Shown one piece after another: positions 2,806 to 26,963 of a stretch of 64,000 nt of DNA. A model generated the notes under the pieces. That model made no database searches, was not told where the DNA came from, and was given only the letters and a program-made list of their open reading frames with translations. Source of the DNA: an uncultured Eubacteriales bacterium (lineage in GTDB: Bacteria > Bacillota > Clostridia > Christensenellales > Aristaeellaceae); NCBI GenBank assembly GCA_900315675.1, contig OMZY01000004.1, positions 1 to 64,000 on the forward strand. Reading direction: 5' to 3'. Each line of letters starts with the position of its first letter. Position 1 is the first letter of the stretch. The position numbers and the translations under genes were made by a program.

Positions 2806-3002
2806 TGTTTTGTCCTCCTGTTCGTTTACTCGGTCCTTCTTTTCGTGAAGGTCTTTCCGTCGTTCCTGTACTGCTTTCGCATATTAATGCGCAGGAAGGG
2901 AACAGGGTGGCAGTTGATTGTCTGTATACAATAAAACAATTTATTCAAATAACCTATGTGACGCATTCAGCAGGAAAAAGACGGGCGTCTTTTCGGAAAA
3001 TC

Positions 3003-3011
3003 TGGTACAAT
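3003..3011 (+). promoter_or_regulatory. Extended -10 promoter
   Basis: TGGTACAAT matches an extended -10 (TGn plus TACAAT). There is no good -35 at 17 bases. It would give a leader of about 110 nt before the methyltransferase start at 3129. The same TGGTACAAT nonamer precedes the glycosyltransferase at 18.8 kb. Confidence 0.5.
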
Positions 3012-3128
3012 AGCTTCATCAAAAATGGAGGCATCCTGGAGAATGAAATTATCAGTTCTGACGGAAAAGCGGAACGAAGGTATTGGATCGATCGTCTGGA
3101 TTATTATCACAAACATTGGAGGAGAAGC

Positions 3129-23894: not shown

Positions 23895-23922
23895 GGAAAC
23901 ACTTTCCGGACGGAAAGTGTTT
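23895..23922 (+). terminator. Intrinsic terminator of the Nudix-nitrilase-YbaK unit
   Basis: GAAACACTTTCCG pairs with CGGAAAGTGTTTC, followed by TTTT. Confidence 0.85.
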
Positions 23923-23925
23923 CTT

Positions 23926-23961
23926 TTGAATGGATTGTTTGGGTAGTAAAGGCGTTGGAAA
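23926..23961. repeat. Conserved tail of the composite element, copy 2
   Basis: Matches 16528-16563 at 29 of 36 positions; see that entry. Confidence 0.7.
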
Positions 23962-23988
23962 CGAGAAGTTGGGTGTTTCAATTAAAAG

Positions 23989-24018
23989 AACAGCTTCCGG
24001 AAAATCCGGAAGCTGGTT
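23989..24018 (-). terminator. Terminator of the leader-controlled methyltransferase
   Basis: AACAGCTTCCGG pairs with CCGGAAGCTGgTT, just after the methyltransferase stop on the minus strand. Confidence 0.75.
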
Positions 24019-24021
24019 TGA

Positions 24022-24780
24022 TTATTTACGGGCGACGATCAGGTAGCGGTGAGTGGTGCCTTCCACAGAACCTTTTTCATCAATCTGCTCCTGCATTTTC
24101 AGCAGGCGGTCAAAGCACCGGTTCACAGAGAAATCAGGGAATTCCCATTCGATGATCCGGGCGAACCATACAAAGGCACCGACATCATAAAACCGGATCT
24201 TTCCGAAGAATTCTTCAGATCTGAGAATCTCAAAACCTGCGTGCCGGAAAGCGTCGCACTGGGCTGCAAGATAAAGATCCGGGAACGGTTCCTTCGCATC
24301 CGGAAAGACCATCTGAACCAGATCCCGGTCATTCCGGCCGCCCACCTGCTGGGTGATAAACAGACTGCCGGGTTTCAGTACCCGGGCTAGTTCTTCCGGA
24401 CAAAAGTCTCCGTGGCGGTTGATGACGATATCGAAGGAACTGTCTTCAAAGGGAAGACGAGCAGGATCGGAACATTCCCGAAGATCGATTCCCAGCGGGG
24501 TCAGCGTTTCCCGGCACAGCGCCACGTTCGGCGGGAAGCCTTCCGTTGCCGCGGTGTTCTCATAGGGATGACCCAGGGTCAGCAGGAACTCACCGCCGCC
24601 GGTGTCATAATCCAGAAGCTTCATATCCTTCTTCAGGTACTGACGGACAATGCTGTCATAATCCCAGGGAATGTCCTGCTCCTCTTCATACCGGCCATGA
24701 AGGTGGGAAAAATCCCAGCCGTGGATGTGGGCGATCTGTTCTTCCTGTTTCCAAAGTTCCTTTAATTCATTGCGATTCAT
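24022..24780 (-). CDS. Class I SAM-dependent methyltransferase with leader-peptide control
   Basis: A 252-residue methyltransferase. Motif I is LLDYDTGGGEFLL (about residues 55-67); RLPFEDSSFDIVINRHGDF and ELARVLKPGSLFITQQVGG follow as in Methyltransf_11 proteins. It does not resemble Erm. Its own ribosome site (AAAGGA) lies in a stem that can be sequestered by the upstream leader RNA. A 24-codon leader ORF with a strong ribosome site precedes it on the same transcript (24850-24924). Regulation by ribosome stalling, as in drug-inducible methyltransferases, is inferred; substrate is unknown. Confidence 0.85.
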   Translation of the reverse strand: MNRNELKELWKQEEQIAHIHGWDFSHLHGRYEEEQDIPWDYDSIVRQYLKKDMKLLDYDTGGGEFLLTLGHPYENTAATEGFPPNVALCRETLTPLGIDLRECSDPARLPFEDSSFDIVINRHGDFCPEELARVLKPGSLFITQQVGGRNDRDLVQMVFPDAKEPFPDLYLAAQCDAFRHAGFEILRSEEFFGKIRFYDVGAFVWFARIIEWEFPDFSVNRCFDRLLKMQEQIDEKGSVEGTTHRYLIVARK

Positions 24781-24784
24781 TTTT

Positions 24785-24904
24785 CTGCATTCCTTTCTTT
24801 TTCATCGTACAGCACATCAGAAAGGTGCAGCTCCTGACAACAGGATCTGTTATTGCTGTTTTACTCGGTGCAACCTGCTGTCAGTTTTATAGAACTGCAC
24901 CGAG
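24785..24904 (-). promoter_or_regulatory. Translational attenuator: mutually exclusive stems
   Basis: In transcript order: S1 CTCGGTGCA (24904-24896) pairs with S2 TGCACCGAG (24872-24864). CTGACAGCAGG (24884-24874), in the loop of S1:S2, can instead pair with CCTGTTGTCAG (24844-24834). CTGCACCTTTC (24830-24820) pairs with GAAAGGAATGCAG (24797-24785), hiding the ribosome site of the methyltransferase, or its CTGCACC pairs with GGTGCAG of S1. This is the alternating arrangement known from erm-type control. Confidence 0.75.
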
Positions 24905-24924
24905 AAGTTATCTCGCATTCTCAT
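24850..24924 (-). CDS. Leader peptide, 24 aa, starting MRMR
   Basis: The ATG at 24924 has a near-perfect AGGAGG seven bases upstream, much stronger than that of the methyltransferase it precedes. The peptide begins MRMRDNFSVQ and is followed by a polar, basic stretch ending RVKQQ. The Arg-Met-Arg start matches the +X+ pattern of macrolide-arrest leaders such as ErmDL (MRLR). Codons 8-11 overlap stem S1, so a ribosome stalled near codon 4 would cover it. It lies 69 bases upstream of the methyltransferase ATG. Confidence 0.75.
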   Translation of the reverse strand: MRMRDNFSVQFYKTDSRLHRVKQQ

Positions 24925-24963
24925 GGTTAACCTCCTGTTGGCCGGGGACGGCGCAACACTGGG

Positions 24964-24969
24964 ATTATA
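24964..24969 (-). promoter_or_regulatory. Extended -10 promoter of the leader transcript
   Basis: On the minus strand TGCTATAAT gives a perfect -10 with the TGn extension; no clear -35. Transcription would start about 33 bases before the leader ATG. Confidence 0.7.
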
Positions 24970-25076
24970 GCATAAACAAACTGAAGAAGGGAAGATATGC
25001 AGGAAACACCCGCCAACAGAAAGAATATGAAACGATATCCGGGAATTGGACAGATGAGACAGAAAGGCAGAATTTC

Positions 25077-25589
25077 ATGCGTATATTTGTTGGTTTGCGG
25101 CCATCTGATGATTTCCGCATGGCATTGGCAGTGTTGCAGGACAGGCTGCGTTGCACCGGAATTACAGGAAGGTATCTTGATCCGTCCAACCTGCACATGA
25201 CCCTGGCATTTATCGGGAAATGGCCGGAGAATATCATTCAGATTCTTCCGCAGGTCAGCCATCCGTTTTCCATCACGCTGGATCATGCAGGGATCTTTCC
25301 AGAAGCGAAAGTGCTGTGGGCCGGCATAGAAAAATCAGAGGAACTGCACCGCCTGGCGCAGTGTGTCCGGGACAGACTGGCTGAACACGGAATCCTTTTT
25401 GATCCGAAGGAGTTTAATCCTCATATTCCACTGGTCCGGAAACCCTTGATTCCGGACAGTGTTGACCTGGCAGGGCTGGAAATTCCCGCAGCGCGTATGA
25501 TTGTTGATGAAGTATGCCTTTACCGTTCTGAGCGGGGAGAAAACGGTATGGAATACACGGTGATCGGAAGTACCCGAAACCGGACATAA
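25077..25589 (+). CDS. thpR: RNA 2',3'-cyclic phosphodiesterase (2H family)
   Basis: A 170-residue 2H phosphoesterase (formerly 2'-5' RNA ligase). The N-terminus RIFVGLRPSDDF is typical. The first catalytic motif is HMTL (about residue 40). The second reads HIPL (about residue 124) rather than the usual HxTx, so the second Thr is replaced by Pro, which may lower activity. The ATG at 25077 is chosen because the family begins at this point; the frame is open upstream, but that sequence overlaps the attenuator on the other strand. Confidence 0.85.
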   Translation: MRIFVGLRPSDDFRMALAVLQDRLRCTGITGRYLDPSNLHMTLAFIGKWPENIIQILPQVSHPFSITLDHAGIFPEAKVLWAGIEKSEELHRLAQCVRDRLAEHGILFDPKEFNPHIPLVRKPLIPDSVDLAGLEIPAARMIVDEVCLYRSERGENGMEYTVIGSTRNRT

Positions 25590-25604
25590 CTTACAGATAT
25601 TGAA

Positions 25605-25637
25605 AAACACCCTTCACGTTTTGTGAAGGGCGGTTTG
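25605..25637. terminator. Bidirectional terminator
   Basis: ACCCTTCAC pairs with GTGAAGGG(C)G, with A and T tracts on either side, between the converging thpR and antiporter genes. Confidence 0.75.
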
Positions 25638-25646
25638 ATTATCAGC

Positions 25647-26963
25647 TTACTTATCAAAGGCCGGGGGAACGGGCTTGGTGATTTCCTGCAGGCGGCGCTG
25701 ACGGCGGGTGAGCATGTCGGCGGATTTGGCCTGAATGTCACCGGCCCTGGTTAGGGCCCACTTGGTGAGGGACGGACCGACCAGTTCATAGATCAGCACG
25801 GAGAACAGGACGATGTTCCGGATCAGGGAACCTTCAGCACCGCCGAGTACCCGGTAAGCAGTGCTGCACATGCCCAGGGCTACACCGGCCTGGGGCAGCA
25901 GGGTGATGCCCAGCCATTTCCGGACGGTCTCCGGGCTCTTCGCCAGGACGGAAGACCAGTGGGCACCCATGATCTTACCCATGGAACGGAAAAGGATATA
26001 AACCACACCGATCAGCACCACGGAGAGATCCGCAAAAACGCTGAAATCCAGCGCCGCGCCGCTGAGCACAAAGAACAGGGTGATGGCCGGGCCGGACCAG
26101 CGGTCCGCCTGCAGCATCAGGTCTTCGCTGAGGGGGCAGAAGTTGCAGAAGATGGTGCCGAGCATCATGCAGACCAGCAGGGAAGAGAAACCGAAGGTAA
26201 AAGGACCGACCGGGATCTTCAGCTGGCTGACAGCGACGGTGAGCACCACGCTGCCGACAATCAGGGCATTCCGGTTACGGTGGGAATGGAAGAACCGTTC
26301 CAGCCAGGTGAGCCCCATGCCCACCAGGCCGCCGAAGATGACGGAAAGGATGACTTCCATGAGCGGCTCAACAATCAGCGCCGCAATATGCGTGGTACCG
26401 TTTTTCATGGACTGGGCGATACCGAAGGAGATGGCGAAGATCACCAGGCCGACAGCGTCATCCAGAGCGACAACGGGCAGCAGGACGTCCGTGACAGGAC
26501 CCTTGGCCTTATACTGACGGACAACCATCAGGGTGGCAGCCGGGGCGGTTGCCGCGGCGATGGCGCCCAGGGTGATGGCTACCGGCATAGGCAGCAGATC
26601 CGGCATGATGAAATGCAGGGCGACCAGGGCGATATCCACAAAGACGGTGGCAACCACAGCCTGCAGGATACCGATGATGGTGGCCTGCTTACCGGTCTGC
26701 TTCAGGGCGGAAAGGCGGAACTCATGACCGATGGCAAAGGCGATGAAACCCAGGGCCACGTCAGAGATCATGGACAGGGAGTCCACCTGCTCCGGGGTGT
26801 TGAAGCCCAGGCAGGGTACGCCGAGCCGGCCCAGGACGCTGGGCCCGATCAGGATACCGGCAACCAGGTAAGCTGTGACGTCCGGCAGGCGGAATTTGAC
26901 AAAAAGCCGGGTCATCAGCAAGCCGGCGAACAGAGCAATTGCAATGAGCAGAAGAGTCTGCAT
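25647..26963 (-). CDS. Cation/proton antiporter (CPA2/Kef type)
   Basis: A 438-residue membrane protein with about twelve to thirteen helices. The ion-binding double Asp is in PVVALDDAVGLVIFA (about residue 167). Helix 1-2 features FRLPDVTAYLVAGILIGP and the crossover TLGAIAAATAPAATLMV are typical of Kef/NapA antiporters. There is no RCK/TrkA domain at the C-terminus, so it is a stand-alone Na+ or K+/H+ antiporter. It is monocistronic. Confidence 0.93.
   Translation of the reverse strand: MQTLLLIAIALFAGLLMTRLFVKFRLPDVTAYLVAGILIGPSVLGRLGVPCLGFNTPEQVDSLSMISDVALGFIAFAIGHEFRLSALKQTGKQATIIGILQAVVATVFVDIALVALHFIMPDLLPMPVAITLGAIAAATAPAATLMVVRQYKAKGPVTDVLLPVVALDDAVGLVIFAISFGIAQSMKNGTTHIAALIVEPLMEVILSVIFGGLVGMGLTWLERFFHSHRNRNALIVGSVVLTVAVSQLKIPVGPFTFGFSSLLVCMMLGTIFCNFCPLSEDLMLQADRWSGPAITLFFVLSGAALDFSVFADLSVVLIGVVYILFRSMGKIMGAHWSSVLAKSPETVRKWLGITLLPQAGVALGMCSTAYRVLGGAEGSLIRNIVLFSVLIYELVGPSLTKWALTRAGDIQAKSADMLTRRQRRLQEITKPVPPAFDK

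Follow-up and report, generated by a model that had tools for sequence, protein, structure and literature searches.

A candidate translation-dependent attenuator with a conserved CGA codon precedes methyltransferase and other genes in Clostridia

A methyltransferase gene of an uncultured Eubacteriales bacterium is preceded by a short open reading frame (ORF) and a set of competing RNA arms, which on balance probably make up an attenuator that depends on translation, is of an undescribed family and is induced when ribosomes are held at a CGA codon of the leader. The gene lies in a stretch of 64,000 nucleotides (contig OMZY01000004.1, positions 1 to 64,000), here called the window. As far as sequence comparison can demonstrate them, the constant elements are the in-frame leader ORF, four competing arms, the CGA codon and the set of genes that follow. 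No description of such a leader was found in the literature searched, with subscription papers and bioRxiv preprints mostly outside the scope of that search.

The methyltransferase gene and its leader

The methyltransferase carries Methyltransf_11 as its sole Pfam domain and no Erm/RrnaAD domain, and no Erm model of NCBIfam matches it at E 0.001, in agreement with a sequence-only reading of the locus that had described the enzyme as lacking Erm features. Its 23 bits against the RlmA model, for which the cut-off is 303, do not place it among the RlmA enzymes; a PDB profile search returned three general methyltransferases (YcgJ, BH2331, RlmA), all distant, and the match to 1p91 is local only. 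The gene is single-copy in the genome assembly searched.

That reading had also placed a 24-codon leader ORF with a near-perfect ribosome site ahead of the non-Erm gene, and both are found in the window (Table 1), the site being a strong AGGAGG and the leader peptide beginning MRMRDNFSVQ. The TGnTATAAT element of the window also precedes the leaders of loci L002–L004, and a stricter two-hexamer scan found no promoter at the window locus. A consensus scan of positions 24700–25300 revealed no intrinsic terminator on the gene (-) strand. Divergent from the leader promoter region, a gene for a LigT/2'-5' RNA ligase-like phosphoesterase occupies positions 25077–25589 of the + strand.

Table 1. Coordinates of the methyltransferase gene, its leader and the predicted RNA arms in the window
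Feature	Position	Strand	Basis
Class I SAM-dependent methyltransferase, 252 aa	24022..24780	-	Pfam Methyltransf_11
Probable extended -10 promoter element TGCTATAAT	24964..24972	-	read directly in sequence
Leader ribosome-binding site AGGAGG	24931..24936	-	sequence
Leader ORF, 24 codons and stop, MRMRDNFSVQFYKTDSRLHRVKQQ	24850..24924	-	sequence and relatives
Conserved CGA, leader codon 4	24913..24915	-	comparison of leaders
Arm A CTCGGTGCAG, encoding part of F-S-V-Q; pairs with B2 or C2	24895..24904	-	fold, pair counts, swap test
Arm B1 CTGACAGCAGG, partner C1	24874..24884	-	pair counts
Arm B2 TTGCACCGAG, alternative partner of A	24864..24873	-	pair counts
Arm C1 CCTGTTGTCAG, partner B1	24834..24844	-	pair counts
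Arm C2 CTGCACCTTTCT, anti-SD arm; partner A or gene SD	24819..24830	-	fold, pair counts, swap test
Gene SD region AGAAAGGAATGCAG, partner C2	24785..24798	-	fold, swap test

Predicted RNA folds

The 220-nt window region is predicted to be more stable than shuffled sequences (z = -2.96, with 2 of 200 shuffles equally good), and its minimum-energy fold is A:C2 enclosing B1:C1. This differs from the stem set of the sequence-only reading, whose three stems are all present where claimed; what it missed is the fourth pairing, A:C2, on which the minimum-energy fold relies. The stem held by that reading to hide the methyltransferase ribosome site, C2:SD, comprises 12 bp and a bulge in the window, forms in the fold computed with a ribosome covering arm A, and is supported as a prediction by the fold, the pair counts and the swap test described below. 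The gene's Shine–Dalgarno (SD) sequence is thus predicted to reside in a stem, C2:SD, that has a competing alternative in A:C2, as is typical of Erm-type attenuators. Rfam 15 yielded no family match in window positions 23900–25700 (two sub-threshold matches both fell outside the leader) and none in the leaders of eight relatives. In one subgroup (L014–L016, L119, L124, L140) a second small hairpin (e.g., TCGTA...TACGA) stands just 5' of the gene SD, downstream of C2, and may contribute to SD control.

Occurrence ahead of methyltransferase genes

In a 200-genome sample of the window's family, 46 matched the methyltransferase at E 0.001, some weakly or partially, and the best 30 were taken as loci; a scan of named genomes gave 576 relatives and contributed its best 80. 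Among the resulting 110 loci, in which a few contigs are counted in both sets (e.g., L002/L031), a pattern requiring arms A, B2 and C2 found the leader at 46, and four further leaders (L021, L023, L046, L069) were recognised by eye. The methyltransferase often occurs without the leader, since the remaining 60 loci gave a single weak, opposite-strand match (E 0.059) to the search model R2. Alignment A2 and model R1 were built from 39 of the 46 leaders, omitting six near-duplicates and L035, which has a long spacer; the pattern that selected A2 itself included arms A, B2 and C2. R1 scores the window leader at 90.4 bits and finds no second copy in the window genome. Leader, stems and CGA codon recur in named Clostridia, the rumen species Butyrivibrio proteoclasticus (L104) being one carrier of the leader, and in other genomes of the same class and phylum; the refuting condition set in the sequence-only reading, that relatives would lack the leader ORF and stems, does not hold.

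Leaders ahead of other gene families

Although trained on methyltransferase leaders only, R1 also matches ahead of ABC exporter, MFS transporter and radical-SAM genes. At E 0.01, with methyltransferase leaders counted as well, it matched in 7 of 291 genomes sampled from the class, 23 of 299 from a second family and 5 of 32 from a third, and the broader R2, at E 0.001, matched in 6 of 398 genomes of the phylum, 18 of 200 of the window's family and 7 of 299 of another class. The R1 and R2 searches share a few genomes, and pooled they give 61 distinct places, 58 of which precede one of four families, the gene being intact or decayed. A methyltransferase follows at 35 places (of altered length at L120 and L121) and methyltransferase remnants at three, an ABC exporter at ten (one decayed, one ended after 33 aa by the contig end), a radical-SAM/SPASM protein at six and an MFS transporter at four. 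The other three (L117, L144, L167), with none of the four genes downstream, were counted as misses, whether chance matches or unassigned. Twelve of the 35 methyltransferase matches lend no independent support, because they are earlier family loci found again, most of them used in model building; the R1 matches ahead of other genes are, at the level of sequence, independent support for the leader family.

Pfam assignments were made for the ABC protein at L134, the radical-SAM proteins at L133 and L139 and the MFS proteins at L115 and L145, and the remaining downstream genes were typed by tblastn or by visible N termini; none of the four downstream proteins scanned reached an NCBIfam cut-off. 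The radical-SAM/SPASM family (L122, L133, L139, L162, L166, L168) is about 310 aa long where complete, carries the motif CxG[RK]CxHCS and bears a distant likeness to YydG peptide epimerases; it had no match in the plasmid collection. What had been read from the window alone as a possible undescribed inducible methylation system survives as a probable leader-ORF attenuator undescribed in the literature searched, and loses its specificity for methylation, the leader also standing ahead of ABC, MFS and radical-SAM genes.

Co-variation of the arms

In alignment A3, which draws 31 diverse leaders from the four gene types, standard pairs occupy 98.7% of cells for A:B2, 97.8% for A:C2 and 90.7% for B1:C1, with three, seven and five pairs, respectively, changed on both sides. 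Sliding a partner by 1–3 columns lowers pairing to 23–56%, and the numbers of paired cells and of double-change cells as well as the covariation score are higher than in any of 500 shuffles. On A2, further pair types were not in excess over shuffles (256 and 281 of 500); on A3 their count stood at 76 of 500 shuffles for A:B2, which is not clear, and at 13 of 500 in the A:C2/B1:C1 analysis. A longer A:B2 (A2 columns 16–21 with 67–72) pairs in just 69.2% of cells and is not claimed.

The arms differ between gene types and individual loci. The methyltransferase type has A CUCGGUGCAG, C2 CUGCACC and SD GGAGUAGUU or GGAAUGCAG, and the ABC type has A CUCAGUACAGUUG, C2 CAACUGUACUG and SD GGAGUACAGUUAUG; the corresponding sequences are CUCAGUAUGGUUG, CUCAACCAUACC and GGAGAAUGGUUGUG at L165, and CUCGAUAUAGCUGA, CAGCUAUAUCG and GGAGAUAUCGCUG at L210. 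As compared here, A, B2, C2 and the gene SD vary in concert across gene types. A swap test over 66 loci, in which each arm was paired with its own partner or with those of other loci, gave mean duplex energies of -16.0 (own) versus -13.0 kcal/mol (swapped) for A:B2, -16.6 versus -12.9 kcal/mol for A:C2 and -11.3 versus -8.65 kcal/mol for C2:SD, the own-partner value being reached by 0 of 5000 permutations in each case. These permutations leave shared descent in, and B2:SD, a pairing outside the model, was likewise equalled by 0 of 5000 even though its own and swapped values differ little (-5.6 own versus -4.8 swapped), so that the permutation counts partly mirror relatedness and the effect sizes weigh more. 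Fifteen of 85 loci, whose gene start was too distant or not settable by rule, were excluded from the swap test and from the mask and pair-probability calculations below.

The CGA codon and the leader peptide

The rule used for an in-frame start with SD is satisfied in 85 of the 87 leaders assembled, the exceptions being L062 (TGA for CGA) and L141, which fails the rule. Among 82 distinct leaders, 80 have their strongest combination of SD and start within 48 nt in the reading frame of arm A, while the distance from start to A varies. Four codons before the arm-A serine stands a CGA in 79 of the 85 leaders (63 of 68 distinct). Synonymous arginine codons were not seen at this position in any of the 85, the exceptions all encoding other amino acids. 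Outside this tally, CGA is found in L206 and L208–L210, TTC in L207 and TAC in the Lactiplantibacillus plantarum plasmid L169. Across 46 long window ORFs, no arginine codon is used less than CGA (34 of 846). CGA is a codon read slowly, by an inosine-bearing tRNA-Arg. The tRNA-Arg anticodons seen in the window genome are ACG, CCG and TCT, from 20 of 30 tRNA loci scanned, with 14 of 44 matches lacking a locus.

The peptide is far less constant. Just 20 of 68 distinct N-termini, or 34 of 85 before collapsing, have a K/R-X-K/R (+X+) pattern at the conserved arginine, so that the MRMR start, taken in the sequence-only reading for a macrolide stalling signal, is neither constant among relatives nor supported as the sensor; the constant feature is the CGA codon. 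The residues before CGA and before the serine are variable, the V and Q positions vary in step with RNA pairing, and the short leader of L210, MKHLRGIYSI-stop, retains CGA. Conservation of the peptide S-V-Q was rejected as the main constraint, the codons following the pairing (TCAGTACAG, CCGGTGCAG, TCAGTATGG; TCG-ATA-stop in L210). Also rejected was a local CGA-UCG hairpin as the cause of CGA conservation, which shows no co-variation by eye; secondary structure does not account for CGA, since replacing it by AGA barely alters the computed opening costs. On this comparison, the codon outweighs the peptide as the conserved feature of the leader.

Computed effect of a ribosome on the leader

A ribosome footprint was masked along the leader and the cost of opening the SD-to-start stretch computed with an approximate term for the A:B2/B1:C1 pseudoknot, in 70 loci of which 57 are distinct. 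In the distinct set, a P site five, four, three and two codons before CGA gives median costs of 6.5 (13 leaders), 8.8, 7.4 and 7.3 kcal/mol; the median falls to 4.7 kcal/mol with CGA in the A site and 5.9 kcal/mol with CGA in the P site, and rises to 8.4–9.5 kcal/mol further on. The cheapest position has CGA in the A site in 32 and in the P site in 16 of the 57, together 48. The ribosome-free RNA has a median of 5.3 kcal/mol and is predicted to be almost as open as the RNA held at CGA, so that an OFF state must stem from leader translation or from folding kinetics.

This optimum depends on the parameters. Lowering the pseudoknot penalty from 9.6 to 5 blurs it, CGA in the A or P site being best in 15 of 29, and the free RNA (6.2) is then more open than RNA with CGA in the A or P site (8.2, 7.2). 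With a footprint edge of +13, 22 of 29 have their minimum when CGA is in the P site; with an edge of +17, 24 of 29 have it when CGA is in the A site or one codon earlier. A published edge, from the toiL report, is +16 to +18 from the start codon (PMC12121999). By gene type, a clear optimum is computed for the 56 methyltransferase and eight ABC loci, the three radical-SAM loci show none, and in the three MFS loci the free RNA is most open by median. In the window itself, a P site at codon 3 costs 3.34 kcal/mol, the free RNA and late codons 22–24 about 3.55 kcal/mol, and a ribosome over the whole of arm A about 8 kcal/mol. The sequence-only reading expected a ribosome over the first stem arm to free the site; in these calculations coverage of all of A closes the SD, and only coverage of its 5' part, near CGA, opens it.

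In pair probabilities computed without pseudoknots, A:B2 is predicted to form before C1 and C2 are transcribed in 56 of 57 leaders. For A:C2 the median probability climbs from 0.15, when the P site is two codons upstream of CGA, to 0.99 when CGA occupies the A site, then drops to 0.51 when it occupies the P site and to 0 beyond; for pairing between the C2 stretch and the SD the medians at the same positions are 0.93, 0.50, 0.99 and 1.00. In ribosome-free RNA the two medians are 0.66 and 0.91. The computed release of the SD with CGA in the A site is accordingly only partial at that median of 0.50, and in the window copy a C2–SD side stem persists.

Proposed mechanism and alternatives

In the switch that we favour, B1:C1 would keep A and C2 close together. 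Under free-running ribosomes, arm A, which lies inside the leader ORF, would be covered or else paired with nearby B2, and because A is thereby taken, C2 would be left to pair with the gene SD, turning the gene OFF. A ribosome with CGA in its A site, perhaps also in its P site, would have its leading edge over the 5' part of A, blocking A:B2, for which this part is needed, and leaving free the 3' part needed for A:C2; A would then take C2, B1:C1 would close beneath, and the released SD would turn the gene ON. The opening position is a computed one, and from the whole we infer inhibitor sensing and a protective role. The likeliest trigger would be an inhibitor of translation under which ribosomes are held at the rare CGA codon, in which case the methyltransferase, the two exporter types and the radical-SAM enzyme would be protective. 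A more specific version can be put forward tentatively, as possible: a codon-sensing attenuator, in which the single rare CGA is kept for its decoding and not for arginine, a four-strand exchange switch (arm A, its mimic at the gene SD and two interchangeable partners) opens while a ribosome waits at CGA, the module has been joined to no fewer than four unrelated protective genes across Clostridia and another class of the phylum, and a CGA-less variant is carried by a conjugative Lactiplantibacillus plasmid.

Since the free RNA is computed to be nearly as open as the CGA-stalled one, and more open at the lower pseudoknot penalty, leader translation could simply be the repressor, ribosomes covering A until lowered initiation turns the gene on, with CGA having a timing role only. 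The vmlR, cplR and toiL leaders do respond to start-codon stalls (PMC12121999, PMC10201436). This account is nevertheless fairly unlikely, as it leaves the conservation of CGA unexplained, and a ribosome on the start codon, three to four codons before CGA in 66 of 85 leaders, is computed to leave the gene closed (7.4 and 8.8 kcal/mol). An Erm- or tlrB-type macrolide sensor, in which the nascent MRMR (+X+) arrests a ribosome carrying a macrolide at codon 3–4, would suit the window copy, which reads M-R-M-R and is cheapest to open with the P site at codon 3, and tlrB of Bacillus subtilis uses a +X+ stall (RYR) (PMC6851288). Against it stand the rarity of +X+ among the distinct N-termini and the variable residues before CGA; were arginine what matters, synonymous codons would be expected and none is seen, and the tlrB motif is C-terminal and followed by a terminator, of which none was found on the gene strand here. 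We consider it unlikely.

The signal might instead be CGA decoding itself, that is, loss or slow supply of the inosine tRNA-Arg through tRNA damage or arginine or tRNA-modification stress, and not a drug. CGA is kept at codon level, the amino acid changing too where it is lost, and only tRNA-Arg ACG, CCG and TCT were seen in the scanned tRNA loci. Against it, the controlled genes are by annotation not arginine or tRNA genes, each leader has one conserved CGA, and the 20 of 30 tRNA loci covered leave room for a TCG tRNA; such a sensor is quite unlikely. A ligand riboswitch with an accidental overlap of the ORF is very improbable: the conserved CGAnnUAA and a possible H-type pseudoknot (A:B2 with B1:C1) are aptamer-like, but an in-frame SD and start accompany nearly all distinct leaders despite variable spacing, Rfam gave no match, and no metabolite is apparent as common to the genes.

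Relation to known leaders

In erm attenuators (ermC, ermB, ermD), competing stems hide the methyltransferase SD until a ribosome stalls on the leader. The CGA leader shares with them competing stems over a methyltransferase SD and the in-frame leader ORF, whose translation is predicted, and differs in having no Erm domain downstream, no conserved arrest peptide and a leader common to four unrelated families. The tlrB (yxjB) leader of B. subtilis combines an RYR stall at the peptide end with a NusA-dependent terminator and an RlmA-II product (PMC6851288); the two have in common a short leader ORF, a predicted or known SD-sequestering hairpin, a known or presumed stalled ribosome and a methyltransferase gene, whereas the CGA leader is without RYR or detected terminator, precedes an enzyme well short of the RlmA cut-off and has the A-to-C2 exchange. 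The vmlR and cplR leaders sense start-codon stalls (PMC10201436) and toiL senses stalls at several sites (PMC12121999). There, too, a very short upstream ORF senses ribosome inhibitors and frees the SD, as is predicted for the CGA leader, whose computed open position, set against those descriptions, is one to two codons wide at CGA. The bmrBCD leader likewise controls a multidrug ABC exporter through leader translation, but has a transcription terminator inside the leader gene (PMC4191407). By analogy, the CGA leader would work like the erm, tlrB, cplR and toiL leaders; judged by gene product and terminator, it falls outside the Erm and tlrB systems, and it differs from cplR and toiL as these are described.

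If the favoured reading is true, a new ribosome-sensing leader family marks four uncharacterised gene families, many in gut or rumen bacteria, which would be likely responders to one common translation inhibitor. The leader would offer a direct handle on that inhibitor and on what the methyltransferase, a widespread and uncharacterised enzyme, has as its target; the prediction is that codon identity (CGA), not peptide sequence, is sensed.

Plasmid copies and decaying genes

Methyltransferase homologues occur on plasmids in 59 records, 29 of them from Lactiplantibacillus, and the genes beside them gave no lead to function. In viral contigs, 12 stretches fit a pattern and none encodes a relative of the methyltransferase; a PHROGs search returned no match. 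On a conjugative L. plantarum plasmid the leader itself (L169, positions 2942–3037) precedes a methyltransferase homologue annotated as two ORFs, which sits between repA and mobQ. At L113, L114, L141 and L210 the leader is still present and the downstream gene is decaying, as methyltransferase fragments or an ABC exporter interrupted by several stops, a pattern suggesting that controlled genes are gained and lost.
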